64,000 nucleotides of DNA from Methanofollis fontis (GTDB lineage Archaea; Halobacteriota; Methanomicrobia; Methanomicrobiales; Methanofollaceae), in NCBI RefSeq assembly GCF_004297185.1, contig NZ_PGCL01000001.1, positions 62,001 to 126,000 of the forward strand, read 5' to 3'. The notes under the pieces were generated by a model. The model was not told the DNA's origin and searched no databases. It saw only the letters and a program-made list of their open reading frames with translations. Position 1 is the stretch's first letter; every line of letters begins with the position of its first letter. A program made the position numbers and the translations under genes. This document shows positions 1 to 54,935 of this stretch, one piece after another.

Positions 1-1
1 G

Positions 2-166: not shown

Positions 167-176
167 GGTAGAAAAC

Positions 177-908
177 ATGGCAGACAAGACATCACCGGCG
201 AGCGGATGGCCCCTGATCAAGGGCGACTTCCACTCGGGCGACGCAAACTCCTGTGTCGCAGTCGTCACCATGGGCTCCCACCTCGATGAGCAGGCCATCT
301 GTGACGCAGGCGCCGCACTCTGCGGTTCATGCAAGACCGAGAACCTCGGCCTTGAGAAGGTCATCGCAAACGTCATCTCAAACCCGAACATCAGGTTTGT
401 CATCACCTGCGGTACCGAGGTCAAGGGGCACCTTTCCGGACAGACCCTCATCGCACTCCACGCAAACGGCGTCGAGGGCGGTAAGGTCGTCGGATCCAAG
501 GGCGCTATCCCCTTCATCGAGAACCTCGACGACTCAGCGATCAAGCGCTTCCAGGCGCAGGTCGAACTCGTCGATATCATGGAGGCAGAAGACCTCGGGG
601 CGATCAAGGCGAAGATCAACGAACTCGCCGGGAAGGACCCGGGAGCATTCGGCGAACCGCCCATGGTCATCGAGGTCAAGGAAGCCGAGGGAGGCGCTGC
701 CGGCGCGGCAGTTGCCGGTGCAAACCCCCAGTTCCTTGAGATCGAGAAGAGGCTCGACGAGATCGAGACGAAGATTGAGTTCGTGAACGCCGAGGTGGCC
801 CAGCGCGTCGGTCGCAAGATCGGCAGGGACATCGGTATACTCTACGGACTGGTTGCAGGACTGACGGTCTTTATGATCCTGGTCTTCCTGCTCCCGAAAC
901 TGATGTAA
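177..908 (+). CDS. mtrG: MtrA-like corrinoid domain fused to MtrG
   Basis: The product has 243 residues. Residues 1 to about 165 are a full MtrA catalytic domain: [19 protein letters not shown], the [20 protein letters not shown] block, and VKGHLSGQ, whose histidine aligns with the cobalt-coordinating histidine of MtrA. After a Gly/Ala-rich linker (about 170-185), residues 187-243 match MtrG ([18 protein letters not shown], then [13 protein letters not shown] and one membrane helix), not the normal MtrA tail. MtrA carries the corrinoid that moves the methyl group from H4MPT to coenzyme M; MtrG is a small membrane subunit. The gene occupies the mtrG slot between mtrF and mtrH. Whether a separate mtrA lies upstream cannot be seen. 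The fusion is visible directly; its role is inferred. Confidence 0.88.
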
Positions 909-922
909 GGAGGATAAGCAGT

Positions 923-1951
923 ATGTTCAAATTTGAGAAGGAACAGGCCGTATTCGACTTCAACGGCATTAAGATCGGTGGCCAGCCGGGAGAGTACCCC
1001 CGCGTCCTCGGCGCATCCATCTTCTACAACAAGCACGAAACCGTGCTCGACGACCACACAGGAAAGATCGACAAGGCAAAGGCAGAGGCCCTCTGGAACC
1101 GCTGCCAGGAGCTCTACGACCAGACCGGCAACCCGTACTTCTGCCAGATCATCGCTGAGTACGGCGAGGCCTTCGAGAGCTACTTCGACTGGTTCTGCTC
1201 GATCGACGACAAGACTCCGTTCCTGATGGACTCCTCCGCCCCGGAGGCGCTCATCCACGCCTGCGAGTATGTCACCGAGGTCGGCATCGCCGACCGTGCG
1301 ATCTACAACTCGATCAACGGCTCCATCCTGCCCGAGAGCATCGAGGCCCTGAAGAAGTCCGACGTCAACTCGGCGATTGTGCTCGCCTTCAACCCCGGCG
1401 ACCCGACGGTTGCCGGCCGTGAGAAGGTGCTCGCCGAGGGCGGTGTGGCCGGTCAGGCGCAGTCCATGATCGGCATCGCCGAGGATTGCGGCATCACCCG
1501 TCCGATCCTGGACACCGCGGCCACCCCGCTCGGCATGGGATCCGGCGGTTCGTTCCGCGAGATCCTGGCCTGCAAGGCGATCCACGGTCTGCCGACCGGC
1601 GGCGCCTACCACAACATGACCGTCTCCTGGACCTGGCTGAAGCGCTGGCGCAAGTCCGTCCTGGCCTCCCAGTACGAGGGCAAGGACGTCCTGCTCGAGC
1701 AGATGGCACACCACCACTTCGGCGGCATGGAGGGCATCAGGCAGACCGCATGGGCTTCGCCTGATATCGGCTGCAACATCATGGCCATGACCCTCGGCGC
1801 CGACCTGATCATGTTCGGTCCGATCGAGAACTGCGAGGGTATCGCCACGGCTGCGGCATTCTCCGACATCGTGCTTGCCGAGGCATTCCGTGAACTCGGC
1901 GGCGACCTCGGCGAGGGTGTCGACAAGCACCCCCTCCTGATGCTCGTCTAA
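923..1951 (+). CDS. mtrH: MtrH, tetrahydromethanopterin S-methyltransferase subunit H
   Basis: MtrH is the peripheral cytosolic subunit that transfers the methyl group from methyl-H4MPT to the cob(I)amide on MtrA. The 342-residue product begins MFKFEKEQAVFDFNGIKIGG and has the family blocks RVLGASIFYNKHE, AFNPGDPTVAGREKVL, ILDTAATPLGMGSGGSFREI and YHNMTVSWTWLKRW. Its TIM-barrel belongs to the pterin-binding methyltransferase group. It is somewhat longer than the roughly 310 residues common in other orders. A strong ribosome site, AAGGAGG, lies 10 bases before the ATG. It closes the mtr operon and is followed by a hairpin with a T-run. Confidence 0.96.
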   Translation: MFKFEKEQAVFDFNGIKIGGQPGEYPRVLGASIFYNKHETVLDDHTGKIDKAKAEALWNRCQELYDQTGNPYFCQIIAEYGEAFESYFDWFCSIDDKTPFLMDSSAPEALIHACEYVTEVGIADRAIYNSINGSILPESIEALKKSDVNSAIVLAFNPGDPTVAGREKVLAEGGVAGQAQSMIGIAEDCGITRPILDTAATPLGMGSGGSFREILACKAIHGLPTGGAYHNMTVSWTWLKRWRKSVLASQYEGKDVLLEQMAHHHFGGMEGIRQTAWASPDIGCNIMAMTLGADLIMFGPIENCEGIATAAAFSDIVLAEAFRELGGDLGEGVDKHPLLMLV

Positions 1952-1962
1952 ACCCCCCATAC

Positions 1963-1987
1963 TTTTTTTCGCACGAAAAACCGTGCG
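1963..1987. terminator. Bidirectional transcription terminator after mtrH
   Basis: A run of seven T residues (1963-1969) is followed by a perfect inverted repeat, CGCACG/CGTGCG, with a six-base A-rich loop (1970-1987). It sits between the convergent genes mtrH and the TIM-barrel gene. The T-run can end mtr transcription by the archaeal U-tract mechanism, while the reverse strand reads as a stem-loop followed by A residues. Confidence 0.6.
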
Positions 1988-2023
1988 TCCGTTTGTCGAT
2001 CAGAGAGATCCGGTCAATCCTGA

Positions 2024-2752
2024 CTATAGCCGATTCAGGTAGTCCAGACTCGGGCGGACGGCGCGGGCATCCCCCACCTCGACCACCGCCGTTGCGCGGG
2101 AGGGAACCGCCTCCATAACAGCCAAAAAATCGATCCCGCCGATGCCGCAGGCGGCATGGAGATCTGTTCTGCCATCGTTGTCATGGAGGTGGAGGTGAAC
2201 GGGATCGCCGAGGCGGCAGAACTCCTCCAGGTTGCCGTTGAGGTGGGCATGACCGACGTCCAGCACAAAACCGAGGTCCAGGTCTGCAAGGAGGGGGAGG
2301 AGGGCGGTGTCACGGAAGTGGCAGCAGGGCCATGACCCCATATTCTCGACTGCCAGAGTGACGGCGCACTCCTCCTGGAGGCGGGAGAGGTCGTACAGGG
2401 AACGCCGAAGCGCCCGTTCAGATAACCGCATCAGGTGGGGTTCGAGGCAGATCCCTGGATGGACGACGAGCACACCCGCCCCAATCTGATCGCAGACCTC
2501 TGCCAGGTCGGCAAGCACCCGGAGCGTCGCCCTCCGCACCGCTTCGATGTCACTGGCGACGTTGAGGTCGGCGGTGGGGGCGTGGACCGTATATTGCAGG
2601 TCAAATGAGGCGGCGATCTCCGCATGATCAAAGAGGGAGTGGCGAGCGTCGGAGAGGATCTCCACACAGTCGGTCCAGACGGAGAGCGCTTCAAGAGCAT
2701 CGCTGAGGCTCTGCTCCATCATGCAGTAGGTTGAGGCGCCGATCCCCCTCAT
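2024..2752 (-). CDS. Sugar phosphate isomerase/epimerase-like TIM-barrel protein (AP endonuclease 2 family)
   Basis: The 242-residue product has the metal-ligand pattern of the xylose-isomerase-like/AP-endonuclease-2 barrel (PF01261 type): VHAP, VHPG, VENMGS, LDVGHAH, HLHDNDG and a final VVEVGD. Such proteins bind divalent metal and act on sugars, inositol or related compounds; the substrate here is unknown. Its ATG overlaps the stop codon of btuD by four bases (ATGA), so it is the last gene of the btuC-btuD unit and is translationally coupled to it. That placement suggests a link to cobamide or metal uptake, but no known cobamide enzyme of this exact type comes to mind. Confidence 0.75.
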   Translation of the reverse strand: MRGIGASTYCMMEQSLSDALEALSVWTDCVEILSDARHSLFDHAEIAASFDLQYTVHAPTADLNVASDIEAVRRATLRVLADLAEVCDQIGAGVLVVHPGICLEPHLMRLSERALRRSLYDLSRLQEECAVTLAVENMGSWPCCHFRDTALLPLLADLDLGFVLDVGHAHLNGNLEEFCRLGDPVHLHLHDNDGRTDLHAACGIGGIDFLAVMEAVPSRATAVVEVGDARAVRPSLDYLNRL

Positions 2753-4014
2753 GCCGGATCTGCCCTGAGCGCCGCCAGGCGGTTCACGAGGTCAGGGACG
2801 CTCCCGATCCGTTCGGCGCCGTTTTCCAGAAGCCCATCGAGGATTGCCGTCGCCTCGCCGCCGGTGTAGTCCTGGTCGGCTCCACCCGTTCCATCAGAAG
2901 AGAGCAGGAAAATTCTGGGGCGGGCATGACATTTGAGCTCTCGCAGGTTGTCGATATTGCCGGGGCCAACCGACATCCCGGTCACGATCACCGCATCCGA
3001 CGCACTGAGAATCGCAGAATACTCCTCCAGAGAATGGTGCGAGATCGGGGCGAAGGGAGGTTCCCGGATCACTCTGATCCCGAGACCTTCGGCAGCGGTG
3101 CAGTCGGAATCGTTTGCCGAGAGCACACCGGCAGTCACCTCATGACCGGCGGCGCGCAGGGCATAGAGGGTTTCTCCACCGGTTCCCCCGCCGCAGACCA
3201 CATGCACCCTGAGCGGGTGATCGACGGGTGGCCCGGAGTCATAGCGCGGCACCACATAGGGGCGTCCGGTGATGGGGTGGGTGCGGACGATCATGTCCAC
3301 GCCAAAGATCTCCCTGATGTTCCGGTCAGTGATCACCGCTGCGGGCGTCCCGACGGCGGCGATATGCGCCCGCTCCATCAGGACGACGGTATCGCAGAAG
3401 TAGGCGGCGAGATTGATGTCATGGAAGACACCGATCACCGTCACCTCAGGCACCAGGCCCCTGATGATCGATAGGACCTCGATCTGGTGGTTGATGTCGA
3501 GGTGGGAGGTCGGTTCGTCGAGCAGGAGCACCCGGGGCGTCTGGGCGAGGGCGCGGGCAATGAGCACCCGCTGCCGCTCGCCCCCGCTGATCTCGGTGAT
3601 GAGTGAACCGGCAAGATAGGCGGTATTGGTGATCTCCATTGCATGCCGGCAGATTGCATAGTCCTCTTCGCTCATCGAGGAGAGGCGCCCGAGATAGGGG
3701 TGACGCCCCATCTGGACGATCTCCTCGACGGTGAAGTCGAAGGTGACCGCCGTCTCCTGCGGGACGGCACCGACGATGGTGGCAAGTTCCCGGATAGAAT
3801 ACCCGTCGATCTCTCTGTCGCCAACATACACGCTCCCGGCATCAGGATCGATGATCCGGGAGAGCGCGCGCAGGAGCGTCGTCTTTCCGCAACCGTTCGG
3901 CCCGAGAATGCCGATGAACGACCCCTCTTTAACGGCGATGGAGATCGCCTCCAGCACCGGTTTTGTGCCGTAGGAGACGTCAAGTTCCTCTGTTCTGATC
4001 ATGATCCCTGTCAT
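2749..4014 (-). CDS. btuD: Cobalamin-type ABC transporter ATPase (BtuD) with an extra C-terminal domain
   Basis: Residues 1 to about 255 form an ABC ATPase of the FecCDE/BtuD type: Walker A GPNGCGKTT, Q-loop VPQE, signature ISGGERQRV, Walker B VLLLDEPTSHLD and switch histidine FHDIN. The ATG at 4014 overlaps the btuC stop by four bases; an ATG at 4002 is also possible. Residues about 270-421 are an additional alpha/beta domain starting RVHVVCGGGTGGETLYAL and containing AVIVTGMSVGPGNIDNLREL, which reads like a Rossmann-type fold with a glycine-rich loop. Similar extensions are known on some archaeal BtuD proteins, but I know no function for them. Substrate assignment rests on the neighbouring BtuF and transcobalamin-like proteins. 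Confidence 0.88.
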   Translation of the reverse strand: MTGIMIRTEELDVSYGTKPVLEAISIAVKEGSFIGILGPNGCGKTTLLRALSRIIDPDAGSVYVGDREIDGYSIRELATIVGAVPQETAVTFDFTVEEIVQMGRHPYLGRLSSMSEEDYAICRHAMEITNTAYLAGSLITEISGGERQRVLIARALAQTPRVLLLDEPTSHLDINHQIEVLSIIRGLVPEVTVIGVFHDINLAAYFCDTVVLMERAHIAAVGTPAAVITDRNIREIFGVDMIVRTHPITGRPYVVPRYDSGPPVDHPLRVHVVCGGGTGGETLYALRAAGHEVTAGVLSANDSDCTAAEGLGIRVIREPPFAPISHHSLEEYSAILSASDAVIVTGMSVGPGNIDNLRELKCHARPRIFLLSSDGTGGADQDYTGGEATAILDGLLENGAERIGSVPDLVNRLAALRADPA

Positions 4015-4958
4015 GCGCGTGTCCGGCTCCTGAGAAGATAGATGAAGAATGGTGCCCCGAAGAACGAGGTGACGATGCCCACCGGGATCTCGGTCGGGAG
4101 GATGCGGACCAGGGTGTCGGCCCACATGAGGAGGGCAGCACCCGCCATCATCGCCGAGGGGATGAGGAGGCGATGGTCGGGCCCAACCAGAATGCGCATC
4201 AGGTGGGGGACGATCAGCCCGATGAACCCGATCGAACCGGCCACCGAGACGGCGATGCCGGTGATAAACGACGAAAGGAGGAGAAGGGCAAACTTCACCT
4301 TTTCCACGTCAACACCGAGGTGCACGGCGTCCTCCTCACCGATGGAGATCACATTGAGGTCGCGAGCGAAGAGGAACAGCACCAGACAGGCGGGCAGGAT
4401 GAGAGCGCCGACCCAGACATCGCCCCACGAGATGTTCCAGAACCCGCCCATCAGCCAGAACATGATCTGGTGGAGGCTTTTTCCAGACATGAACATGATG
4501 AAGGAGAGGAGGGCCGAGAGGAACATCGAAACGGCGATGCCGGAGAGGAGCAGGGTCTCGACCGCCACCCGCCCGTTCCGCCGGGATATCAGGTAGACGA
4601 GAACGGTGGAGGCGGTGGCGCCGATGAAGGCGAAGACCGGAAGGGCAAACCCCATGAAGAGGACAATGGCGATTGAGGCGCCGAGTGCCCCGCCCGAGGA
4701 TGTACCGATGATATAGGGGTCGGCCATCGAGTTCTTGAAGAGTCCCTGCATCGCCGCACCGGCCACGGCAAGACCCGCACCCACCAGCAGGGCGGCGAGC
4801 ACCCGCGGCAGGCGGACGTCGAAGAGGAGCATGTGTATCGTCTCGGGATCGAGGTCCAGGAGGGAGAGGCCGCTCGCCCCGATGGCGGTGGATAGGACGA
4901 TGCTCAGGATAAGGAATAAGAAGAGCAAACCCGGCATCGTCCAGCTCTTTGTTTGCAT
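4011..4958 (-). CDS. btuC: Cobalamin/iron-chelate ABC transporter permease (BtuC/FecCD family)
   Basis: This 315-residue integral membrane protein has the FecCD/BtuC hallmarks: an N-terminal helix, the DVRLPRVLAALLVGAGLAVAG motif, QGLFKNSMADPYIIGTSSGG, and late GSIGFIGLIVPHLMRILVG. About ten helices are visible. The start MQTKSW at 4958 is preceded by GGGGAA at good distance; an in-frame upstream ATG would add an unlikely polar extension. It is the first gene of the leftward btuC-btuD-TIM-barrel unit and faces away from the surface-protein operon that encodes the BtuF-type binding domain, so the importer is probably split across the divergent pair. Confidence 0.92.
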   Translation of the reverse strand: MQTKSWTMPGLLFLFLILSIVLSTAIGASGLSLLDLDPETIHMLLFDVRLPRVLAALLVGAGLAVAGAAMQGLFKNSMADPYIIGTSSGGALGASIAIVLFMGFALPVFAFIGATASTVLVYLISRRNGRVAVETLLLSGIAVSMFLSALLSFIMFMSGKSLHQIMFWLMGGFWNISWGDVWVGALILPACLVLFLFARDLNVISIGEEDAVHLGVDVEKVKFALLLLSSFITGIAVSVAGSIGFIGLIVPHLMRILVGPDHRLLIPSAMMAGAALLMWADTLVRILPTEIPVGIVTSFFGAPFFIYLLRSRTRA

Positions 4959-5338
4959 GGATTCCCCTTCAAAATGGCATGTTAAAACAAATAAATTTAC
5001 GCTTTTTAAAAAAGGGTGTAGTTGTGCCCGTACCGCCCCCAATCGTCACCTGATACAGGAGGGCGGTCTTTTTACGTACACACAGAGCATCACACCCATT
5101 TCCTTCTCACAAGTTTTCACCTTCTCCGCCTGTTCTGGAGAAAGAGGCACAGAAACCATACAGATCATGGCGCTCCCATCACATGATGCGCGATTCCTGT
5201 GCATGCCGGGATGATCGTGAAGAAGGGGGGAAGAGGGAGCGGGGGGGAAGCGTCAGCCAAACAAAGTATATTTGAAGTAAGACCACATAATTTAAAAAAT
5301 AAATATTGTCATAGTCCCAAAAAAATGGAGCGAACTGA
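4959..5338. promoter_or_regulatory. Divergent intergenic region between btuC and the surface-protein operon
   Basis: This 380-base gap holds no convincing gene. AT-rich TATA-like stretches lie at both ends: CTTTTTTAAAAAGC and AAATTTATTTG on the minus strand (about 4988-5013), and AATTTAAAAAATAAATATTG on the plus strand (about 5290-5310), roughly 30-45 bases before the ATG at 5339. The middle is ordinary high-GC sequence with one purine-rich run (5220-5250). I saw no cobalamin riboswitch-like structure. A common operator for both directions would have to lie here. Confidence 0.5.
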
Positions 5339-8092
5339 ATGACCGGAAAATTTTCCTCTATAGGGATATGTTTTGTATTCCTGATGATTCTGGCCGCACC
5401 CGCGGCGGCCGACTACCCGATGTTCCACGCCGATCCGGCGCGCACCGGGATGGCATCGACACCAGGACCATTGAACGACACCCTCCTCTGGTCGGCAGAG
5501 ATCGATGAGTTCCCTGACGGCGCACCGGCAGTCCATGACGGGAAAGTGTACCTCCCGACCTGGCCCGATATGAACTTCACCGATGCCGATCCGATGGGGC
5601 TTGTCTGCTGTGACGCCGCAAGCGGCGAGGTTCTCTGGACAAACGAACTCGGCGGTCAGGCGGTCGGTTCGGTTTCCGGTGTCGCTGGCGCCGATGGTCA
5701 TATCTATATCGGCGGCACCGACGGAAAGGTGTACGCCGTCGACGCCGACACCGGCGTCACCCTCTGGTCGAGCGAACAGATCGACACCACCGCCTATTTC
5801 GGGCTCTCGTCCTCGCCTCTTGTCTATAATGGAACGGTGTACGTCCTCTCGGCCTCCGACGGTGTCCTCCACGCGTTCGGGACCGACGGTACCGGACTCT
5901 GGACATTCCAGACCGGCGGCGCCATCGGCTACTATATTTCGCCGTCTGCCGCAGACGGGAAGGTCTATGTCGCCGGGAAGGGGAACGAGATTTTCTGCAT
6001 CGATGCCGGCACCCACACCGCCGTCTGGAACGCTACCTTCCCCGAGGCCGTGAAATCGACCCCGGTCGTCAGTGACGGGAGGGTATATGCGACCACGGCA
6101 GACCATCTCTACGCCCTTGATGCGACCACCGGCACCGAAGCCTGGAACGCCGCCCTCACCGGCACCTATTCGACACCGGCCATTTCAGACGATATCGTCA
6201 TCGCCGGTTCATCCAACGGACTCCATGCCTACAATGCCACAACCGGTGCCGAACTCTGGACATTTGCGAGTGCACGGGTGAGCGTCTCCCCGACAATCGC
6301 CGACGACATCGTCTACTCTGGCACAAACGAGGAGACAGGAAGGGTGTATGCGGTGAATATCGCTACCGGCATCGAGGTCTGGTCATATGTGCTGCCTGAC
6401 TCCGGCGACGGCACCTACGCGGCGTTTTATACATCATCTCCGGCCATATCAGACGGTGTGCTCTATATCGGCGCTGAAAACAACCGTTTGTATGCCTTCG
6501 GCGAGGGTTCGTCCAGCCCCGAGGTGATCTGGGACGGAGCGGTCTCGATCACGGAGGGCGAGATCTTCACCTTCGTGCCCTCAAACAACGCCTCCGCATC
6601 CTATGAGATGAACCGCACCACCGATATCGGTGCACTCGACCGGGCGGCAACAGACGGCGGGTTCACCTACAATGCATCGGATGCATGGTACGCAGACTTC
6701 GGGTCATTCCTCCTGGAGGACATCAACGGCATCGAAAACCAGGACTGGACGCAGGAAAACGCACACGCATGGAGCATCTTCATCAACGGTGAGGCCGCAC
6801 CGATGGGATTCGGGGCAAACGACATCCAGAACGGGGATACACTCACCTTCTACTACTGCCCCACCGATTCCGTCACATGGGCGCCACTCATCGACCAGGC
6901 CACCTATATCGTCACCATCGATGTCGAGGTCACCACCGCAACCGTGATCTGGGACGGGGCGGTCGCCATCACGGAGGGCGAGATCTTCACCTTCGTGCCC
7001 TCAAACAACGAATCAGCATCCTATGAGATGAACCGCACCACCGATATCGGTGCACTCGACCGGGCGGCAACAGACGGAGGGTTCACCTACAATGCGTCGG
7101 ATGCATGGTACGCTGACTTCGGGTCATTCCTCCTGGAGGACATCAACGGCATCGAAAACCAGGACTGGACACAGGAGAACGCACACGCATGGAGCATCTT
7201 CATCAATGGTGGGGCCGCACCGATGGGATTCGGGGCAAATGACATCCAGAACGGGGATACACTCACCTTCTACTACTGCCCCACCGATTCTGTCACATGG
7301 GCGCCACTCATCGACCAGGCCACCTATATCGTCACCATCGATGTCGAGGTCACCACCGCAACCGTGATCTGGGACGGGGCGGTCGCCATCACGGAGGGCG
7401 AGATCTTCACCTTCGTGCCCTCAAACAACGAATCAGCATCCTATGAGATGAACCGCACCACCGATATCGGTGCACTCGACCGGGCGGCAACAGACGGAGG
7501 GTTCACCTACAATGCGTCGGATGCATGGTACGCTGACTTCGGGTCATTCCTCCTGGAGGACATCAACGGCATCGAAAACCAGGACTGGACACAGGAGAAC
7601 GCACACGCATGGAGCATCTTCATCAACGGTGAGGCCGCACCGATGGGATTCGGGGCAAACGACATCCAGAACGGGGACACAATCACCTTCTACTACTGCC
7701 CCACCGATTCTGTCACATGGGCGCCACTCATCGACCAGGCCACCTATATCGTCACCATCGATGTCTGCATCGCCGAGGCGGCGGTCGATACCCCCTCACT
7801 CGCCGACGGCACACGCGGCGGCTTCGTCCTGGCAGAGATTAACGCCACCGCAGAGGAGAGCGGGTGGTATGTGGTCGTGGTGAGCGGCACCGATGCCAGC
7901 GGAGAAGCGATCGCCGGCACCGGCACCGTCCGCCTGAACAGCGGCGAGACGGTCCAGGTGCCGGTGCTGGTCTCGGTCCCCGCCCAGGCGAGTGCGGGCA
8001 CCTACACGCTGTATGCCGGGATCTACCACCTGGATGAATATCCGGAGGGCCTGATCTCCCACAGCGGAGGTTCGGAATGCGTCGTATCCTGA
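5339..8092 (+). CDS. Exported PQQ-like beta-propeller protein with three tandem DUF4430 (transcobalamin-like) domains
   Basis: The 917-residue protein has a signal peptide (about 1-23, ending PAAA). Residues 25-390 are a PQQ-type beta-propeller with repeated blades such as DGKVYAVDADTGVTLW and TTGTEAWNAALTG. Residues about 397-810 are three copies of a 140-residue DUF4430 domain (PF14478, related to the C-terminal beta-domain of transcobalamin), each with TDIGALDRAA, DINGIENQDW, AWSIFING and IQNGDTLTFYY. A C-terminal beta-domain of about 105 residues follows, with no obvious anchor. The gene leads a four-gene operon and overlaps the next gene by 16 bases. Cobamide or other ligand binding at the cell surface is inferred from domain and context. 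Confidence 0.85.
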   Translation: MTGKFSSIGICFVFLMILAAPAAADYPMFHADPARTGMASTPGPLNDTLLWSAEIDEFPDGAPAVHDGKVYLPTWPDMNFTDADPMGLVCCDAASGEVLWTNELGGQAVGSVSGVAGADGHIYIGGTDGKVYAVDADTGVTLWSSEQIDTTAYFGLSSSPLVYNGTVYVLSASDGVLHAFGTDGTGLWTFQTGGAIGYYISPSAADGKVYVAGKGNEIFCIDAGTHTAVWNATFPEAVKSTPVVSDGRVYATTADHLYALDATTGTEAWNAALTGTYSTPAISDDIVIAGSSNGLHAYNATTGAELWTFASARVSVSPTIADDIVYSGTNEETGRVYAVNIATGIEVWSYVLPDSGDGTYAAFYTSSPAISDGVLYIGAENNRLYAFGEGSSSPEVIWDGAVSITEGEIFTFVPSNNASASYEMNRTTDIGALDRAATDGGFTYNASDAWYADFGSFLLEDINGIENQDWTQENAHAWSIFINGEAAPMGFGANDIQNGDTLTFYYCPTDSVTWAPLIDQATYIVTIDVEVTTATVIWDGAVAITEGEIFTFVPSNNESASYEMNRTTDIGALDRAATDGGFTYNASDAWYADFGSFLLEDINGIENQDWTQENAHAWSIFINGGAAPMGFGANDIQNGDTLTFYYCPTDSVTWAPLIDQATYIVTIDVEVTTATVIWDGAVAITEGEIFTFVPSNNESASYEMNRTTDIGALDRAATDGGFTYNASDAWYADFGSFLLEDINGIENQDWTQENAHAWSIFINGEAAPMGFGANDIQNGDTITFYYCPTDSVTWAPLIDQATYIVTIDVCIAEAAVDTPSLADGTRGGFVLAEINATAEESGWYVVVVSGTDASGEAIAGTGTVRLNSGETVQVPVLVSVPAQASAGTYTLYAGIYHLDEYPEGLISHSGGSECVVS
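6524..7767 (+). repeat. Three in-frame 420-bp tandem repeats encoding DUF4430 domains
   Basis: The unit begins GTGATCTGGGACGG at 6524, 6944 and 7364, so the period is exactly 420 bases (140 codons). The third copy diverges after about 7767. Copies 2 and 3 differ at only about five positions by eye (near 7207-7261 versus 7627-7681); copy 1 differs a little more. Such identity over long distances implies recent duplication or ongoing gene conversion, and predicts copy-number variation among strains. Confidence 0.95.
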
Positions 8093-9660
8093 CGCTGCTC
8101 TGCCTGCTGCTCGCCGCCGCCTGCAGCATGCCGGCGGCAGCGCTGAGCATGGATGTCTCGGGAAACACTGCCGGTTCCCCGGTGGTGGTCACCTGCGACG
8201 GGGAGGCATTCATCATCTTTCAGGAGAATGGCGGCACCCCGGTGTTCGCACAGGGCACAACCGTCAGGTACGTCCCGCAGACCACCGGCACCCTCTCGAT
8301 TGTGGCGAGTGCCGGGAACGAATCGGCAACCGGGAGCGTCACTATCTCATCGAGCGGCAGCGGCGGCGGTAGCAGCGGCGACGGAGACGACGATGACGAC
8401 GACACCTACCAGTCTGTGACCCTCACGGCAGGCAACTTCAGCCTCACCTCCGCCAACAGCGGCACCACCTACACGGTGAACCGCCGCACCGCACTGGGCG
8501 CACTCGACGCATCCGGAGCGGCATATGCAATCGATGACACCTGGTATGACCAGTACGGCACCCTCTACGTCACTGCCGTCAATGGACGGACAAATGATGG
8601 AGCCAGGGGCTGGATGTTCCAGGTCAACGGCGTCTCCCCATCAGTCGGCGCCAATGTAAAGGGAGTGCAGGACGGCGACCGGGTTGTCTTCTACTGGAGT
8701 GAGAGCATGTCCTCCACCCCTGAGACCTCCGAAGAGGTGATCAGGCTGCAGGTCGTCTATGGCAGCAGTTCGGACGAGAATGATGAAACAAGCACGACCA
8801 ACGATGAAAATACCTTTGGTCAGGCCAATGAACCCGAAATTCCGGTCGGTCTGCCTGCAGGCACCACCATCTCGATCGTGGGCGGAAAGACCAGAATCGC
8901 GGTGGACCTGAGCGCCGACCACGACGGGGAGCAGGTCATCGTCAGGGGCGACCGCATCATCATCTACCGTCCGGGCATGTCCATGACCGTCATGACCGAG
9001 GACATCACCGAACGTGACGGCATCGCCTCCGGGTTCATCAGGAGCGTAGAGGTTGACCTGGACCCGGCAGGCGGCGAAATCCCGGGGGTAGGTCCTGTAC
9101 GGACGACCGCCTCCCTGATACTCGCAGGCATGCCTGCCGATGCCCGGTTGACCGTCACCTATACAGACGACCTCACCCCCGGCGAACGCTCCGCCCTTGA
9201 CCTGGCGGCAAGAGAAGAGAAAATGGGCATTGAGGCATTCGCGTATGCCGCCGATATCGAAACAAACGGATTTGAGGCGGAAGAGATCCAGGGCGCCACG
9301 ATCAGGCTGTATGTGAGTCCAGAATGGGTGAACGCACATGGCGGTGCCACTGCGATCCGCATCGCCGACATCACAGCGGACGGGACGGTCACCATCCTCC
9401 AGACCTCCCTTGTCGGTGTGGACGACGACGGCGACCTGATCTTCGAGGCGGATTCCCCGGACGGACTCTCCAGATTCGCCCTCGTCGCCCTCGGAGAGGG
9501 GGGGACAGTGGCGACAACGACCACCGCAGGCATGACCACCGCACCGGCGTCCGCACCTGAAACGACACCCCCGGCGCAGGCACCGATCGGCGAGGCGACG
9601 GTGATCGCCGCTGCCCTTATCGGAGCAGGCGCCCACCTGATCAGGAGACAGGAGGGATGA
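8077..9660 (+). CDS. Exported, membrane-anchored DUF4430 protein
   Basis: The 527-residue product starts with a signal peptide (MRRILTLLCLLLAAACSMPAAA). A short Ig-like segment (25-90) leads into a Ser/Gly/Asp-rich linker, then one DUF4430 domain (about 108-210) with NRRTALGALDASG, GWMFQVNGVSP and VQDGDRVVFYW. Residues about 245-475 form a beta-rich domain resembling the PGF-pre-PGF region of archaeal surface proteins (RLYVSPEWV, FEADSPDGLSRFALVAL). A Thr/Pro-rich stalk and a terminal hydrophobic helix ending in RR anchor it. The start overlaps the previous gene by 16 bases, and its stop overlaps the next start (ATGA). It is probably a surface ligand-binding partner of the toroid-BtuF protein. 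Confidence 0.83.
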   Translation: MRRILTLLCLLLAAACSMPAAALSMDVSGNTAGSPVVVTCDGEAFIIFQENGGTPVFAQGTTVRYVPQTTGTLSIVASAGNESATGSVTISSSGSGGGSSGDGDDDDDDTYQSVTLTAGNFSLTSANSGTTYTVNRRTALGALDASGAAYAIDDTWYDQYGTLYVTAVNGRTNDGARGWMFQVNGVSPSVGANVKGVQDGDRVVFYWSESMSSTPETSEEVIRLQVVYGSSSDENDETSTTNDENTFGQANEPEIPVGLPAGTTISIVGGKTRIAVDLSADHDGEQVIVRGDRIIIYRPGMSMTVMTEDITERDGIASGFIRSVEVDLDPAGGEIPGVGPVRTTASLILAGMPADARLTVTYTDDLTPGERSALDLAAREEKMGIEAFAYAADIETNGFEAEEIQGATIRLYVSPEWVNAHGGATAIRIADITADGTVTILQTSLVGVDDDGDLIFEADSPDGLSRFALVALGEGGTVATTTTAGMTTAPASAPETTPPAQAPIGEATVIAAALIGAGAHLIRRQEG

Positions 9661-11636
9661 CTCTGAAACCAACAATACAACCAATACTCATTTTTCTGCT
9701 CTGCATCGCCTGTGTGACGGTTGCAACAGCCTATCCCTATGACAGGGGCGATCCGGCCATCAAGAGCGGGCTTGACTACATCAGGTCCTGCCAGCACGAC
9801 GACGGCGGATTTGCCGAGGCCGGGAGGGGCACGAACCCGGGCACCTCATGGTTTGCGGTGATGGCGATCGTCGCCGCCGGCGAGGACCCGCATGACTGGG
9901 CGGTGAACGGCACTTCAGCGATCGATTACTGGAAATATTCAGATGACACCGTCAACCCGGACGGCACGGCCGAACTCGGTAAGATGGTCACCGTGATCTC
10001 GGCGGCAGGAGAGAACCCGCATGACTTCGGCGGCTACGACTATCTCACCACACTCAGGGGGCGGATGAACCCCAACGGCCAGTTCGGGGACTTCATCTAC
10101 ACGACCTACTGGGGGATCCTCGGACTCGTCTCTGCCGGCGAGGACGTCGCCCTATCTGTCAGCTGGCTGAAGGACCAGCAGAACGACGACGGCGGCTACG
10201 GCTGGATGCCGGGTGCCGAGAGCGACTCTGACGATACCGCCGCCGTGGTCATGGCCCTCGTTGCCGCAGGCGTGCCGAAGACCGATCCATCGGTCACAGG
10301 GGCCCTCGACTACCTCAGGGCACACCAGATGGAGGACGGCGGCTTCAACTACGGCGGGTCGTCATCCTCGAATGCCGCCTCGGCGGGATGGGTGATCCAG
10401 GCGATCGTCGCCGCCGGCGAAGATCCCTCCGGATGGTCAAAGAACGGCTACGACGTGGTCTCGGCACTTGCAGACCTGCAGCAGCCCGACGGATCGTTCC
10501 GGTGGACGACCTACACCACCGACAACCCCTGCGGCATGACGGCGCGAGCAATCCCCGCCCTGCTCGGCAGACCCTACCCGGTCCTCCCCGGACAGACCCC
10601 ATCCGACCTGTCGGCACCAGAGACATCGGTTCCGGCGGCATCAGAGACCACACAGACAGCAACAACCGTGACAACCACCCAAATACCAGCCGAATGGCAG
10701 GCCGTTACCATCACCGATGACTTCGGCGATCAGGTCACCATCGAGCAGATGCCGATGCGTATCGTCTCCCTTGCTCCGGCCAACACCGAGATCCTGTATG
10801 CTCTGGATCTCGGCGAGCAGATCGTCGGCGTGACCGACTACTGCAACTATCCGGCTGAGGCGAAAGAGAAGCCAAAGGTCGGCGGGTATTCAACCGTGAA
10901 CATCGAGCGCGTGGTGGCGGCGAAACCCGATCTCGTCGTCGCCGCCTTCGGTAACACCGAAGAGGTCGTCGACCACCTCAGAAACCTCGGCCTGACCGTG
11001 ATATCGCTGAACCCGGATTCAGTGGAGGGGACGCTCCATGACATCAGGCTCGTCGGTGAGGCGACCGGCAGGACGGCGGAGGCGGAGCACCTGGCAGCGT
11101 CGATGGAGGAGCGGATCGGTGCGGTGACCAAAAAAACCCGGACCGTGAGCGATCCGCCGACGGTCGTCCACGCCGTCTGGTACGACCCCATCTGGGTGAG
11201 CGGGAACGCCACCTTCCAGGACGAACTGATCCATCTCGCCGGCGGCACCAACGCCTTCCCGGACGTTGACGGCTGGCAGATCGTCACCATGGAGCGCTTC
11301 ATCACCACCGACCCGGACGTGATCATCGTCAACTCCGGGACCGGAATGGGCGAGGGGGGCACCGACCTCATCTACCACTACTTCATGGAGGAACCGCGCT
11401 TCAAGAACCTGAAGGCGATAAAAAACGATCGGGTCTATGTCATCGAGTCTGACCTGATCGACCGGGGCGGGCCGCGCCTGGTCGACGCCCTGGAAGAGGT
11501 GGCGGCCGACATCCATCCCGACCTCTTCGGGGCGAAGGCGGCACCGACGACAGGCACACCGCAGACTCCCGGTTTCGGAATAGGAGCGGCCTTCACCGCT
11601 CTTGCAGGCGCCGTCATCCTGTTGAGGAGAACCTGA
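9657..11636 (+). CDS. btuF: Alpha/alpha-toroid domain fused to BtuF-type cobalamin-binding protein, PGF-CTERM-like tail
   Basis: The 659-residue protein has a signal peptide (1-26). Residues about 30-305 are prenyltransferase/squalene-cyclase-like toroid repeats (HDDGGFAEAG, NDDGGYGW, MEDGGFNYGG, QPDGSFRW), the fold also used by the N-terminal half of transcobalamin and intrinsic factor. After a Thr/Ser/Pro linker (310-345), residues 350-625 are a BtuF/TroA-type binding protein (VTITDDFGDQVTIEQMPMRI, SLAPANTEILYALDLG). The C-terminus, TPGFGIGAAF plus a hydrophobic helix and RR, matches a PGF-CTERM archaeosortase signal. It is coupled to both neighbours by overlaps. I infer capture of a cobamide and delivery to BtuCD; an iron-chelate ligand is the alternative. 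Confidence 0.88.
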   Translation: MTLKPTIQPILIFLLCIACVTVATAYPYDRGDPAIKSGLDYIRSCQHDDGGFAEAGRGTNPGTSWFAVMAIVAAGEDPHDWAVNGTSAIDYWKYSDDTVNPDGTAELGKMVTVISAAGENPHDFGGYDYLTTLRGRMNPNGQFGDFIYTTYWGILGLVSAGEDVALSVSWLKDQQNDDGGYGWMPGAESDSDDTAAVVMALVAAGVPKTDPSVTGALDYLRAHQMEDGGFNYGGSSSSNAASAGWVIQAIVAAGEDPSGWSKNGYDVVSALADLQQPDGSFRWTTYTTDNPCGMTARAIPALLGRPYPVLPGQTPSDLSAPETSVPAASETTQTATTVTTTQIPAEWQAVTITDDFGDQVTIEQMPMRIVSLAPANTEILYALDLGEQIVGVTDYCNYPAEAKEKPKVGGYSTVNIERVVAAKPDLVVAAFGNTEEVVDHLRNLGLTVISLNPDSVEGTLHDIRLVGEATGRTAEAEHLAASMEERIGAVTKKTRTVSDPPTVVHAVWYDPIWVSGNATFQDELIHLAGGTNAFPDVDGWQIVTMERFITTDPDVIIVNSGTGMGEGGTDLIYHYFMEEPRFKNLKAIKNDRVYVIESDLIDRGGPRLVDALEEVAADIHPDLFGAKAAPTTGTPQTPGFGIGAAFTALAGAVILLRRT

Positions 11637-12706
11637 TGAGGCGAACAGCGGGGATCGTCCTCCTTCTCCTCTCCGTCATGGCGGCAGGCGCCGGTGCAGC
11701 GCCATGGACCACAGCGTGGCAGAAAGGAACGGCGGAGGCGGCAATCGACGTCGCCCTCTCCGGGGACGGCAGAACCGTTGCCGTCCTCAACGGACCAGCC
11801 CTGACGCTCTATGATGCCACCGGCAGTCTGCTCTGGGAGGCACCGGCATCCCATGCCGGATCGGTGGATATCAGCACGGACGGGTCCCTCATCGTAGCAG
11901 GGGGAGAGAACCTGCGGGCATATCACCGGGACGGAGAGATTGCGTTCAGGCACGACACCGGTTTTTTCGCCCTGGGAAGCGGCATCTCACCGGACGGTTC
12001 AACAATCGCCGCCGGTTTTGACAACTCCAGCCTGATGATATTCCGTCAGGACAGCAACGGATCCTTTGAAGCCGCCCATATCCTCACCACGCCTGCCGAC
12101 GTGACCACACTCGACCTGGCAATGAATGGTTCCCACATCGTCACCGGTGACAGGGAAGGGTTCATCCGGTATTATACCGGTGAAGGCCGTCTTCTGTGGT
12201 CCTATAAAACCGGGAGCGACCTGCTCAGCCTTGTCATCACCGACGACGGGAGCAGGATCATCGCAGGCATGGACCATGGTGTGGTCGGTCTGCTCACCGC
12301 CAACGGCAGGGAGGCATGGAAACAGACGGCAGGCGACCGGATGCCCGCCGTGGCAATCGCCGGAGACGGAACGGTCGCCGCAATCGGTGCAGACGGGATC
12401 ACCGTGCACTCGATCTCGGAAGACACGGAGGAGTCCGTCGGAACAACGGGTGTCACCGCCCTCTCCCTCTCCGCCGATGGATCGGGCATGGCAGCCGCAT
12501 TCGAGAACAGGAGCGTTGCTCTCGTCACCATCGGAGAGGAGAGCACACCTGCCGTCACCACACCGCAGGGGAGGACAGAGACCACTCCGTCAACCCCTCC
12601 CAGGACAGAGACAGACGCCATACCGCCGACAGATGCCGCACCCTCACCCGCACTCATCGTTGCCGCACTCGGCGGCGCGGTGCTGCTGGCCCTCAAACGG
12701 CGATAA
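11636..12706 (+). CDS. Exported, membrane-anchored WD40/PQQ-like beta-propeller protein
   Basis: The 356-residue product has a signal peptide ending GAGAA, a single propeller-like domain (about 25-295) with repeats such as LSGDGRTVAVLNG, ISTDGSLIVAGG and ITDDGSRIIAGMD, a Thr/Pro-rich stalk and a C-terminal helix (ALIVAALGGAVLLALKRR) that anchors it. The start codon overlaps the previous stop (TGATG), so it is the fourth gene of the surface operon. A scaffold role for the other exported proteins is plausible; no enzymatic motif is visible. It ends two bases before the convergent DUF362 gene. Confidence 0.78.
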   Translation: MRRTAGIVLLLLSVMAAGAGAAPWTTAWQKGTAEAAIDVALSGDGRTVAVLNGPALTLYDATGSLLWEAPASHAGSVDISTDGSLIVAGGENLRAYHRDGEIAFRHDTGFFALGSGISPDGSTIAAGFDNSSLMIFRQDSNGSFEAAHILTTPADVTTLDLAMNGSHIVTGDREGFIRYYTGEGRLLWSYKTGSDLLSLVITDDGSRIIAGMDHGVVGLLTANGREAWKQTAGDRMPAVAIAGDGTVAAIGADGITVHSISEDTEESVGTTGVTALSLSADGSGMAAAFENRSVALVTIGEESTPAVTTPQGRTETTPSTPPRTETDAIPPTDAAPSPALIVAALGGAVLLALKRR

Positions 12707-12708
12707 TA

Positions 12709-13794
12709 TCACCTGAACAGGCGTGCCAACAGCGGGAGCCCGACCACCACTGCATCTGCCGGGCAGCGCTCCTGACACCTGAGGCACCGGATGCACTCCG
12801 CCACCCGGATGCGGGGAAGGGCTGAAGCCTTCATACGGATTGCACCGGTCGGGCAGAGATCTGCACACACCCCGCATCCGGTGCACCGCTCCGCATCAAT
12901 CAGCGGACGGGCGGCGAGCGTCCGGTCGGCAAGGCGGACTGCAAGAGAGGGGCCCTTTTCCCTCCCTGCCGGGTGCACCACACCATCACCCGGAGAAAAT
13001 CCGGGTGGAGGCGTCCCGAACACCCGTATCTCCGAGAGACTCCCCGGACCCTCTCCCCGCCCGTAGGCGCGGCCGATGGTGGGGACGGAGAGGGGATCCA
13101 ATCCAACCGCCGCCGCGGCGGTATAGTCCAGCACGGTGGAACTCGTTGAGGCCATGATGAAACCGGGACCGTCTGGACCCCGGATCCCGGCGATGCCCTC
13201 CATGATCGACAGGGACGGGGGGACGGTCGCATGGACGTCCAGAAGGAGGTCGGCATACAGGGCAGGATCGCTGCAGACATGACGGCGATAGGCGATCCGC
13301 GCCGCACGCGGCATGTAATGGCAGAGGAAGGAGACCGCACCTGAATACCCGTTGAGACAGGTGGACTTCAGTGTCGGGAGGCAGATCACCGCATCTGCGT
13401 CGAGCACTTCTCGTGCCACCATCAACCGCCGGAAGGTGAGGGCGCCCGGCGCCGGGATCATCTCCGTGTCATCGTCCAGACAGACAGATTCACACCCGCA
13501 CTCATCGATCACATCCTGAATTCCGGTTTTTGCGAGCAGGCGCCGAAGGGTTCCAGCGCCGCCGTCCGGCGAATATCCAATCACCGGCGCACCCCCGGCA
13601 CCCTCCACCGCCTCCACAACCGCCCGCACCACCCGGGAATGGGTGCCGGTGAGATCAGGGATGACGATTGTCCGCATTCCAGGTTTCACCACTGCCCCGA
13701 TACCGCCAATCGGATGTAAAGACGCCCCAATAGAAAGAGAGACGTCATCCACCCCATATGATGGGCATCCTACGATTGAGACAGCGTTATGCAT
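12709..13794 (-). CDS. DUF362 protein with two C-terminal 4Fe-4S clusters
   Basis: The 361-residue protein has a DUF362 domain (about 1-290; AVSIVGCPSYGVDD, IVIPDLTGTHSRVVRAVVEA, LPTLKSTCLNGYSGAVSFL) followed by a ferredoxin domain with CTGCGVCADLCP and CIRCLRCQERCP, sufficient for two [4Fe-4S] clusters. DUF362 proteins are redox proteins of unsettled function common in methanogens. I chose the ATG at 13794 because a minus-strand TATA-like element (TTTTATATTTTTATGG, about 13816-13831) would place the transcript start near 13800, inside the extension that an ATG at 13815 would require. Confidence 0.82.
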   Translation of the reverse strand: MHNAVSIVGCPSYGVDDVSLSIGASLHPIGGIGAVVKPGMRTIVIPDLTGTHSRVVRAVVEAVEGAGGAPVIGYSPDGGAGTLRRLLAKTGIQDVIDECGCESVCLDDDTEMIPAPGALTFRRLMVAREVLDADAVICLPTLKSTCLNGYSGAVSFLCHYMPRAARIAYRRHVCSDPALYADLLLDVHATVPPSLSIMEGIAGIRGPDGPGFIMASTSSTVLDYTAAAAVGLDPLSVPTIGRAYGRGEGPGSLSEIRVFGTPPPGFSPGDGVVHPAGREKGPSLAVRLADRTLAARPLIDAERCTGCGVCADLCPTGAIRMKASALPRIRVAECIRCLRCQERCPADAVVVGLPLLARLFR

Positions 13795-13896
13795 ATACTG
13801 CACGCAATACACCATAAAAATATAAAACGATGATCATATATTCGGAGTGATCACTATCTTGATATTTTTCCACGATGATTCCAACGTGGTGCATTC
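13795..13896. promoter_or_regulatory. Divergent promoter region, DUF362 gene / lemA
   Basis: The 102-base gap contains ATAAAAATATAAAACG (13814-13829) and ATCATATATTC (13832-13842). These can serve as TATA elements for the leftward DUF362 gene and possibly for the rightward lemA gene, whose ATG lies about 60 bases further on. No other structure was seen. Confidence 0.45.
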
Positions 13897-14460
13897 ATGG
13901 ATATCCTGACACTCGTGTTGATTGCCGTCATCGTTATCGTGGTGCTGGCGCTGATCGGCTGGATCGTTTCCATATATAACCGCTTCATGAGCCTGAAAAA
14001 TTCTGCCGAGGCCACCATCGGGCAGATCCGGGTCGCAATGAAGAAACGTCTCGACCAGATCGAGCAGCTCCTGGGTGCGGTGCGGAGCTATGCCGCCTTT
14101 GAGAAGGAGACCCTGACACAGGTCACCGAGATGCGTGCGAACGTCGCAAAAGCAGGCCCGGGCGACCTGAACGAGGTCGAACGGCAGTCCCGCTCCATCT
14201 TCGGCAGGTTGCTGGCGGTGGCCGAGGCCTACCCCGACCTCAAGACGCAGGCCACGGTCTCGGACCTGATGTCTTCGATCAAGAGTATCGAGGACGAGAT
14301 CGCCCGCCAGCGCTACACCTACAACAACATCGCCCAGCAGCTGAACACCATGACCGAGACCATCCCCTCAAACATCGTCGCATCCCTGATCCACATGCAG
14401 AAACTCGACTATCTGGAGTTTGAGGAAGAGATCCAGCGGGCGCCGAAGATCGAGTTCTGA
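13897..14460 (+). CDS. lemA: LemA family membrane protein
   Basis: The 187-residue product has one N-terminal membrane helix (LTLVLIAVIVIVVLALIGWI) and the coiled LemA domain with YNRFMSLKNSAEATIGQIRVAMKKRLDQIEQL and NDVERQSR-type sequence (LNEVERQSRSIFGRLLAVAEAYPDLK). It ends RAPKIEF, with the PKIEF-like ending often seen in this family. LemA proteins are anchored helical bundles of unclear function. The gene is 11 bases upstream of a DUF2207 gene, a common LemA partner, so the two probably form a two-gene operon. Confidence 0.9.
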   Translation: MDILTLVLIAVIVIVVLALIGWIVSIYNRFMSLKNSAEATIGQIRVAMKKRLDQIEQLLGAVRSYAAFEKETLTQVTEMRANVAKAGPGDLNEVERQSRSIFGRLLAVAEAYPDLKTQATVSDLMSSIKSIEDEIARQRYTYNNIAQQLNTMTETIPSNIVASLIHMQKLDYLEFEEEIQRAPKIEF

Positions 14461-14471
14461 GGTGTGATGCA

Positions 14472-16289
14472 GTGAGTGAAAACCGGCAGATCGCTACGGT
14501 CATAGCCGTCACCCTGTTTTTCGGGCTGATCGCCATTCTGGCGACCTTCGCCCTCCCCACCCTCTTCGAGGGCGACCTTGTCGTCGATACGTATGAGGCG
14601 GTCTGGTACGAGAACGGCACCCTGCTCGAACACTATGTCTATGAGGTGAAGACACCGGGCGAATACCGGATGCTCTTCCGCTACTTCGACGACCCCCTCA
14701 CCTTCACGTCGGTCTCCTATCCACATATCCGTTACCTGGATATGACGGCGCCGCCGGGAATGATCGGGTATGCAAAGGACAGCACAGGAGGTATTTCGGT
14801 CTCAGGCGACGCAACAGAGGCAGAACGATCGTTTATCATGGACCGGGCGTTTGCCAGCGAGGTGGGCATCTACAACCCCGCCTATTTCGATGCCGGCACC
14901 TATTCCGTCGATTACCGCTTCGAGGTCGCACCACCGGTAGAGTACGACGAAACCGCCACCCACATCAACCTCAAACTCGTCAGGGAGCATATCCCCTACC
15001 GCTCCCTCTCGATCACCCTCCCTGACTGGGGGGCGATCGAAGAGGTCTATGCCTATCCGCCTGACCTCTCGGTCGAACGGGAGGGAGGGACCGTTCGCCT
15101 GAGCGGGGCGGCGGCGGCTGACGATACGGTTGCCGTCGAACTCCTCCTCCCGGCCGGCGCATGGGAGAGCATCCCCGGTTTCCCGTCTCCGGTTGAGGAC
15201 GTGCGCGGCCGGACCGCGGCCGGGGCCTTCTGGTATACCCTGCCCTATACGGCGGCATCCCTCCTCCATGCCCTCGCCGCCCTCCTCGCCCTCGCCATGC
15301 CATTTGTGCTCTTTGCCGTCTACCGGCGATGGGGCGTTGAAAAAGGGTTTACCGTGCCCGAATACCTCAGCACCACCCCGGATCCCTCGAAGAAGCCCTG
15401 GCAGGTGAACCTCCTCTTCAACGGCGATGTGATCGATTTCGATGAGAACGGCTTCTATGCAACGGTGCTCGACCTCCACCGGCAGGGCGCCCTCACCGTC
15501 ACCGAAAAGGCGGATGGTAAGGGGGTGCTGATCGCCGTGAACCGGCAGAGCGCCGCCGATCCCTATGAGCAGCGGGTGCTCAACACCCTGGGCGGGATGG
15601 CGGAGGGCGGGACGTTCGACACCTCGACGCTGGAGCGTCTTGCCGCAGAGGGGCGGCATGGCGGGGCAGCGGAGAGGCGGGCGCTCAGCATCCAGGGGAG
15701 CATGAAGGCCCTCTTCACCCAGGCGGATCTCCGGCTTTCAGCCGAGTACGCCACCGACGGGCGGACGACCATCGCACTCCTCCTCTTCCCGGGTGCGATC
15801 CTCCTCGGGCTCTCCATACTGGTGGCGGTCATCGCCCCGGCGACCGCTTCCATCGCCTTCCCGGCGATCGTGCTCTCTCTGGCCTCCGTGGCCGAGGTGA
15901 TCATCGCACTCCTCTTCCCCTCCACCCTCTTCGGGCACTGGCGGGGCGACCACTACCGTGAAAAACTGGAGTGGGACGCCTTCGGGCATTTCCTCTCCGA
16001 CATGGCGATGATCAGTAAATACACCCCGTCGGATCTCTCGATGTGGGGTGAATGGCTTGTCTATGGCACGGCGCTCGGCGTCGGCGAACAGGTGGAGGCG
16101 GCGATGAAATCCCTCAACGTCCCGATGGCCGCGGTCGGGATGCCGATGTACTCCCGCATGCACCTCGCCTTCGTACCGATCATCGCCTTCTCCCCACCCT
16201 CGTCGGGCGGAGGGAGCGGTGGATTCGGCGGCGGAGGAGGATTCGGTGGAGGCGGCGGGTTTGGCGGCGGCGGTGTGGGCGGCCGCTGA
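14472..16289 (+). CDS. DUF2207 (YpeP-like) membrane protein with Gly-rich C-terminus
   Basis: The 605-residue product has an N-terminal helix, a large extracytoplasmic beta-rich DUF2207 domain (about 35-250; VDTYEAVWYENGTLLEHY, YSVDYRFEV), a helix pair near 255-285, a cytoplasmic region (YLSTTPDPSKKPWQVNLLFNG; HRQGALTVTEK), two more helices near 435-485, and a tail of GGGGGFGGGG repeats. Such Gly-rich tails are typical of DUF2207 proteins. The GTG at 14472 is used; the ATG five bases upstream is closed by an immediate stop. It partners LemA; its function is unknown. Confidence 0.85.
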   Translation: MSENRQIATVIAVTLFFGLIAILATFALPTLFEGDLVVDTYEAVWYENGTLLEHYVYEVKTPGEYRMLFRYFDDPLTFTSVSYPHIRYLDMTAPPGMIGYAKDSTGGISVSGDATEAERSFIMDRAFASEVGIYNPAYFDAGTYSVDYRFEVAPPVEYDETATHINLKLVREHIPYRSLSITLPDWGAIEEVYAYPPDLSVEREGGTVRLSGAAAADDTVAVELLLPAGAWESIPGFPSPVEDVRGRTAAGAFWYTLPYTAASLLHALAALLALAMPFVLFAVYRRWGVEKGFTVPEYLSTTPDPSKKPWQVNLLFNGDVIDFDENGFYATVLDLHRQGALTVTEKADGKGVLIAVNRQSAADPYEQRVLNTLGGMAEGGTFDTSTLERLAAEGRHGGAAERRALSIQGSMKALFTQADLRLSAEYATDGRTTIALLLFPGAILLGLSILVAVIAPATASIAFPAIVLSLASVAEVIIALLFPSTLFGHWRGDHYREKLEWDAFGHFLSDMAMISKYTPSDLSMWGEWLVYGTALGVGEQVEAAMKSLNVPMAAVGMPMYSRMHLAFVPIIAFSPPSSGGGSGGFGGGGGFGGGGGFGGGGVGGR

Positions 16290-54886: not shown

Positions 54887-54935
54887 GGGGGGTCACAGCG
54901 ATCTCCCCTTGAGATCGCAATAATATATATACATT
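54887..54935 (-). promoter_or_regulatory. Promoter and leader of VWA paralogue 2, shared with paralogue 3
   Basis: Reading from the gene outward on the plus strand, the sequence is CATGGGGGGTCACAGC, then GATC and an AATAATATATAT TATA box at about 54919-54930. The same arrangement, including identical bases around the start, occurs upstream of paralogue 3. The leader has no Shine-Dalgarno sequence. Confidence 0.6.

Follow-up and report, generated by a model that had tools for sequence, protein, structure and literature searches.

Burroughs et al. (2007) defined the clade of DUF4430/SLBB domains and described among its members bacterial fusions to α/α-toroids, fusions to β-propellers and paired paralogues. 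The bacterial loci were linked to CbiO/CbiQ transporters and to the scavenging of vitamin B12, and the ligand of the archaeal proteins was left open (PMC1796856). The α- and β-domains of transcobalamin, when expressed separately, assemble only in the presence of cobalamin and thus provide a precedent for a clamp formed in trans (PMC5599065). The locus described here occupies positions 2024-12706 of a 64,000-nucleotide stretch of DNA (the window) from the 2.36 Mb, 98.5% complete genome of a member of Methanofollis in the order Methanomicrobiales. The minus-strand genes btuC, btuD and a gene for a CbiR-like protein are here divergent from four overlapping plus-strand genes, which encode, in this order, a β-propeller with three DUF4430 domains, a DUF4430 protein, a toroid fused to a BtuF-type binding protein and a second β-propeller.

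Judged by its sequence, the locus probably encodes a system for scavenging cobamides at the cell surface. Its DUF4430 and toroid domains would form a clamp in trans that feeds BtuF, BtuCD and the CbiR-like protein. The strongest evidence that the two domains act together comes from outside the Methanomicrobiales, mostly from Archaeoglobaceae, where DUF4430 and toroid are joined in a single protein (n = 29) with a separate BtuF next to it and often BtuC/BtuD as well. In two Methanophagales-type loci (L059, L060) propeller, DUF4430, toroid, BtuF and BtuC are encoded by separate consecutive genes, as they nearly are in L092, while in L093 BtuF is fused to a propeller and two DUF4430 domains, and in L045 (11023-14478) the toroid-BtuF protein apparently runs on in one frame into the equivalent of the fourth gene. 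As the domains fused in some lineages are encoded side by side in others, their joint action is very likely, and the cooperation of toroid, DUF4430 and importer proposed in a preliminary description of this DNA gains support from the Archaeoglobi fusions beside BtuFCD. Such re-shuffled fusions indicate which domains probably must meet.

The same description had proposed a survey of relatives, and its outcome is strongly positive. Counted over 199 Methanomicrobiales genomes, with E ≤ 1e-8 defining a strong DUF4430 match, 46 genomes have both DUF4430 and toroid-BtuF, three have DUF4430 only, four toroid-BtuF only and 146 neither (Fisher 1e-36, uncorrected for relatedness). Within Methanoculleus alone the corresponding figures are 11, 1, 0 and 23, and the two parts therefore come and go jointly among close relatives. 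All 43 DUF4430/toroid-BtuF pairs found on one contig lie within 5.9 kb of each other. BtuF is present in 53 of 60 loci around DUF4430 matches (stretches of up to 20 kb), where approximately 4% would be expected from its 6 matches in 2.36 Mb. Nearly all of 20 such stretches from other Methanomicrobiales carry btuC, btuD, propeller/DUF4430 and toroid-BtuF genes, usually also the second propeller gene and often the CbiR-like gene. The two operons are divergent and lie beside mtr in the genus of the window, and are often co-directional in other families.

It is also conceivable that the importer takes up cobamides while the DUF4430 and toroid domains serve as an adhesive or scaffold, which holds BtuF in the surface layer or concentrates the ligand without joint binding. 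Propellers with tandem DUF4430 domains do resemble surface scaffolds, tethering by partner domains has been suggested (PMC1796856), and in sister genera btuC, btuD, btuF and cbiR stand side by side without a toroid. The strict co-occurrence of DUF4430 with toroid-BtuF argues against a scaffold, as do the 29 natural fusions, which unite both transcobalamin folds and nearly always have BtuF near them, and this alternative is considered rather unlikely.

Organisation of the locus and its DUF4430 domains

The features of the locus are as follows.

2024-2752, minus strand: CbiR-like AP_endonuc_2 protein, putative cobamide phosphodiesterase; third gene of the btuC-btuD operon (PF01261, 5.3e-21)
2749-4014, minus strand: btuD, ATPase; begins at the btuC stop codon with an ATGA overlap (ABC_tran, 4.4e-30)
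4011-4958, minus strand: btuC, permease (FecCD, 1.7e-92)
4959-5338, no strand: divergent intergenic region with the AT-rich element CAAAGTATATTTGA near 5260-5280 (from an alignment of intergenic regions)
5339-8092, plus strand: gene 1, exported BamB-type β-propeller with three DUF4430 domains and a NEW3-like C-terminus (PQQ_2, 3.8e-53; DUF4430, 1.9e-22)
6527-7786, plus strand: tandem DUF4430 repeats of gene 1, three of 140 amino acids each with an exact 140-residue period
8077-9660, plus strand: gene 2, exported DUF4430 protein with a C-terminal membrane anchor (DUF4430, 9.3e-14; hydrophobic tail followed by RR)
8377-8721, plus strand: DUF4430 domain of gene 2, a relative of the transcobalamin β-domain (member of profile A7, which matches transcobalamin-1 and -2)
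9657-11636, plus strand: gene 3, toroid-BtuF fusion with a PGF-CTERM-like anchor (SQHop_cyclase_C, Prenyltrans, Peripla_BP_2)
9744-10601, plus strand: toroid domain of gene 3 (SQHop_cyclase_C, 3.3e-12; Prenyltrans, 5.2e-11)
10689-11552, plus strand: BtuF-type binding domain of gene 3 (Peripla_BP_2, 8.9e-44)
11556-11630, plus strand: PGF-CTERM-like surface anchor of gene 3 (TIGR04126, 4.6e-4; 19.8 bits against a cut-off of 24.5)
11636-12706, plus strand: gene 4, exported β-propeller with a C-terminal membrane anchor (PQQ_2, 1.6e-11; WD40, 6e-8)

The preliminary description had read this region as a btuC-btuD importer divergent from a four-gene overlapping operon with four DUF4430 domains and a toroid fused to a BtuF-type binding protein, beside the mtr operon. 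Each part is borne out: the importer by the FecCD and ABC_tran matches, the operon by mutual overlaps of 1-16 bp between genes 1 to 4, the DUF4430 count by three domains in gene 1 and one in gene 2, the fusion by the domain matches of gene 3, and the mtr genes by mtrA/G and mtrH at 177-1951. To that description are added the CbiR-like gene at 2024-2752, which overlaps btuD, and the assignment of genes 1 and 4 as β-propellers. The btuC reading frame is open to 5042, and its likely start at 4958 follows from homologue lengths of about 315 amino acids. The products of genes 2 and 4 end, as read from their sequences, in a hydrophobic stretch followed by basic residues. Both divergent operons are preceded by AT-rich elements, CAAAGTATATTTGA at 5255-5285 and CAAATAAATTTAC at 4980-5000, which are similar to one another and partly kept in the genus, with CAAAGTATATTTGA common to some of its members in the intergenic alignment; they are possible promoters or a shared operator. 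No cobalamin riboswitch was found by Rfam in positions 1-16000 of the window.

A genome-wide profile search found no DUF4430 domain outside genes 1 and 2. The repeats of gene 1 are pairwise identical at 132-137 of 140 amino acids and at 394-405 of 420 nucleotides, and therefore represent one recently amplified domain; other members of the genus carry one to three DUF4430 domains of the gene 1 type. Profile A7, built from 65 DUF4430 domains including those of the window and searched against 177,635 PDB sequences, gave as its top matches transcobalamin-1 (4kki, 9.5e-6) and transcobalamin-2 (5no0, 1.7e-4), followed by 3u7z (1.2e-3). Gene 2 alone and a first, narrower DUF4430 profile gave no transcobalamin match against the PDB, which only the broader A7 found. 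The DUF4430 domains of Archaeoglobi moreover share SWGPFVSCIAGKC with SWGPYITCIQGLC of transcobalamin-1. The kinship to the C-terminal β-domain of transcobalamin that had been put forward thus holds in the profile search. The domain also has other contexts, as a Methanosarcina-type gene (L071, 8406-10847) encodes five DUF4430 repeats near propeller proteins with BtuFCD out of reach.

Probable corrinoid link and loss of the ring operon

A FecCD permease, an ATP-binding cassette ATPase and a Peripla_BP_2 binding protein, the composition of a BtuCDF importer, are all present in the locus. The best NCBIfam model of BtuD is PRK09536, a corrinoid transporter ATPase (1.7e-104, residues 14-389), and BtuC matches PRK09535 BtuC (9.3e-98). 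From the neighbouring genes and the loss of ring synthesis we infer that this importer carries corrinoids. The best model of the neighbouring AP_endonuc_2 protein is CbiR (NF041277), and ten of its residues (H57, H98, E136, D165, H168, H186, H188, H190, D191 and E225) are invariant in 14 homologues from such clusters; metal-ligand-type residues of this sort are important in CbiR (PMC7733943). In three genomes (G092, G064, G181) cbiZ also lies close to the btuCDF-cbiR loci. A second CbiR-like paralogue is encoded in the genome of the window (L188, 7624-8334, minus strand), and CbiR-like genes occur in 198 of the 199 genomes, compared with one archaeal taxon reported in 2020. The replacement of CbiZ by CbiR was considered and rejected, as CbiZ-family genes are found in 190 of them.

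According to an older survey, every sequenced methanogen produces B12 (PMC2667541). A search of the genome of the window found neither CbiD nor CbiC. A sister genome (G003) has the operon cbiT-L-F-G-H-C-D-E-A flanked by a PadR gene on one side and a Gate-domain gene on the other. In the genome of the window, approximately 0.3 kb free of Ns separates these two flanking genes on a single contig (C3:472515-478111, L185), and about 7.7 kb are missing. The genes cobS (TIGR00317, 141.7 bits against a cut-off of 110) and cobT (TIGR00303, 273.1 against 240) are kept next to the deletion site. As the ring operon is lost and cobS and cobT are retained, the organism is predicted to need an external corrinoid for MtrA and to be capable of rebuilding the nucleotide loop; in other words, it is a predicted cobamide auxotroph. 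Of 11 further genomes of the genus that were searched, 10 have CbiD, and the one without it is an assembly of 81% completeness. With a corrinoid-dependent Mtr encoded and a corrin ring that it apparently cannot build, the organism should need the cobamides of its neighbours for methanogenesis, and having lost the corrin-ring genes it seems to depend on its surface uptake proteins. The corrinoid ligand originally suggested for this system is thus supported both by the CbiR-like and CbiZ neighbours and by the loss of the ring operon.

Toroid, ligand and proposed mechanism

Several observations weigh against a cobamide clamp coupled to BtuCD. The NCBIfam equivalog cut-offs are missed by BtuC (327.9 against 461 bits), BtuD (350.2 against 537) and BtuF (120.8 against 234), and the third gene of the importer operon scores 61.9 bits (6.4e-17) against a CbiR cut-off of 105, for which reason it is called CbiR-like. 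Heme and iron-complex binding proteins of the class of BtuF score nearly as well as BtuF itself, Methanosarcina-type DUF4430 genes (L071, L072) have no BtuFCD nearby, and the nearest relatives of the toroid by both sequence and fold are terpene cyclases and prenyltransferases, with most toroids of the family keeping an SDxDDTA motif. Finally, CbiD is present in 168 of the 199 genomes, nearly all relatives thus building corrin rings themselves; the system is therefore not confined to auxotrophs, and its use as a marker of auxotrophy was rejected.

The toroid domain is an all-helical repeat in the predicted model, mostly with a predicted local distance difference test (pLDDT) score of 80-95, and the toroid-containing models have pLDDT values of 80 and 91. 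Together with the SQHop_cyclase_C and Prenyltrans matches this confirms the fold, which had been likened to the N-terminal half of transcobalamin. Toroid profiles searched against the PDB matched squalene-hopene and drimenyl diphosphate cyclases first (1.5e-40) and intrinsic factor weakly (0.03), with no significant transcobalamin match among the matches listed. Fold searches with both models returned binding proteins and cyclases or prenyltransferases as their best 50, and transcobalamin was not among the best 50 of the toroid search. These matches and the SDxDDTA motif would suit an exported enzyme resembling class II terpene cyclases, with a link to the importer that is fortuitous or serves lipid anchoring. 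Such an enzyme is nevertheless most improbable, as the toroid is exported, single and fused to BtuF or DUF4430, its presence and absence track those of DUF4430, and its profile matches correspond to a late cyclase repeat.

The BtuF domain of gene 3 matches 4m7o, a protein named as iron-binding, best among PDB sequences (1.6e-31), and also matches Vibrio cholerae BtuF (5ysc, 1.9e-26), which Foldseek recovers as well (3.3e-16). Against NCBIfam a generic PGF-CTERM binding-protein model comes first and BtuF next. The ligand might accordingly be another large metal chelate, such as heme, an F430-type tetrapyrrole or a siderophore, the more so as heme binders rank close and as archaea with such proteins are often B12 producers themselves and might take up a different compound (PMC1796856). 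Heme IsdE, however, reaches only 80 bits where BtuF reaches 120.8, the top model of the ATPase is of the corrinoid type, the top matches of DUF4430 are cobalamin carriers, CbiR-like and CbiZ proteins are neighbours, and the ring operon is lost in this genome, so that a ligand other than a cobamide is distinctly unlikely. Residues E417 and E546 of the BtuF domain are invariant in 20 sequences; aligned with V. cholerae BtuF, they are taken to be docking-type glutamates, presumably with the role of those in E. coli BtuF.

In the toroid tree the toroid-BtuF proteins form one clade (98/95) beside a group of archaeal DUF4430-toroid proteins and free toroids. The BtuF tree differs in that the toroid-fused BtuF domains are not one clade; BtuF halves have perhaps been exchanged, or toroids lost. 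The toroid-BtuF protein of a Methanoculleus genome (G071, L046) is nested among Methanofollis sequences, which suggests horizontal transfer of the module.

It is proposed for the cobamide scavenging system that DUF4430 modules on exported β-propeller scaffolds would catch corrinoids at the surface. The toroid, which shares a membrane-anchored chain with BtuF, would then cover the opposite face of the ligand, complete the clamp in trans and pass the ligand on to BtuF within that chain. BtuF would dock on BtuC through the two glutamates E417 and E546 and be emptied by BtuCD, which would import the ligand. Inside the cell, cleavage of the nucleotide loop probably falls to the CbiR-like enzyme, after which CobT and CobS could rebuild the cobamide preferred for MtrA. 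We infer the identity of the ligand, the geometry of the clamp, the hand-over and the remodelling from these features. The broader view of an archaeal transcobalamin in trans, acting as a surface relay before BtuCD and as the lifeline of a methanogen without corrin-ring synthesis, appears on balance to be slightly favoured.

Elsewhere in the window, the minus strand at 48452-63956 encodes an adhesin-like surface array: four exported proteins of approximately 1000 amino acids in tandem (Big_1, Invasin_D3, VWA) and an 807-residue relative. Positions 44983-46785 encode a CetZ-type tubulin of 600 amino acids with a C-terminus far longer than the family domains.

Comparison with known systems

Like transcobalamin, intrinsic factor and haptocorrin, the locus combines a toroid with a β-grasp (DUF4430/SLBB) domain. 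Whereas the transcobalamin family has both in one chain with the toroid first, the halves are here found on separate proteins, of which the toroid-bearing one also includes BtuF and is anchored to the surface; in the Archaeoglobi fusion the order is reversed, with DUF4430 first. The bacterial SLBB-toroid loci described in 2007 share with the locus an exported DUF4430 protein, a toroid partner, a second DUF4430 paralogue in the operon and propeller fusions, and the Clostridia loci found here, with DUF4430 proteins, a double ATPase and a toroid, fit that description. Those loci employ a CbiO/CbiQ transporter of the energy-coupling factor type, in contrast to the BtuC/BtuD type and CbiR-like enzyme of the window. 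The BtuCDF system of E. coli and the archaeal btuD type of PRK09536 have in common with it the permease, the ATPase, a class III binding protein and invariant docking-type glutamates, but here the binding protein bears an N-terminal toroid and surface capture proteins are added.

The B12-capturing surface lipoproteins of Bacteroides likewise feed a B12 importer from the surface, although they belong to an outer-membrane system of other proteins and offer an analogy only (PMC6143338). With Akkermansia CbiR the locus shares an AP_endonuc_2 protein encoded next to corrinoid genes, with nucleotide-loop assembly genes in the genome, and the corrinoid salvage and loop rebuilding predicted here are much alike; the archaeal protein differs in scoring below the CbiR cut-off and in adjoining the importer rather than biosynthesis genes (PMC7733943). 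The general idea is not new, as bacterial proteins with DUF4430 and toroid were predicted in 2007 to serve in B12 scavenging (PMC1796856). Within the literature searched, the new elements are the archaeal form coupled to BtuCDF, the fusion of toroid and BtuF, the association with CbiR-like and CbiZ genes, the co-occurrence and the deleted ring operon. This gene context addresses the question raised in 2007 concerning the role of archaeal transcobalamin-like proteins and offers a testable archaeal parallel to the B12 carriers of animals.

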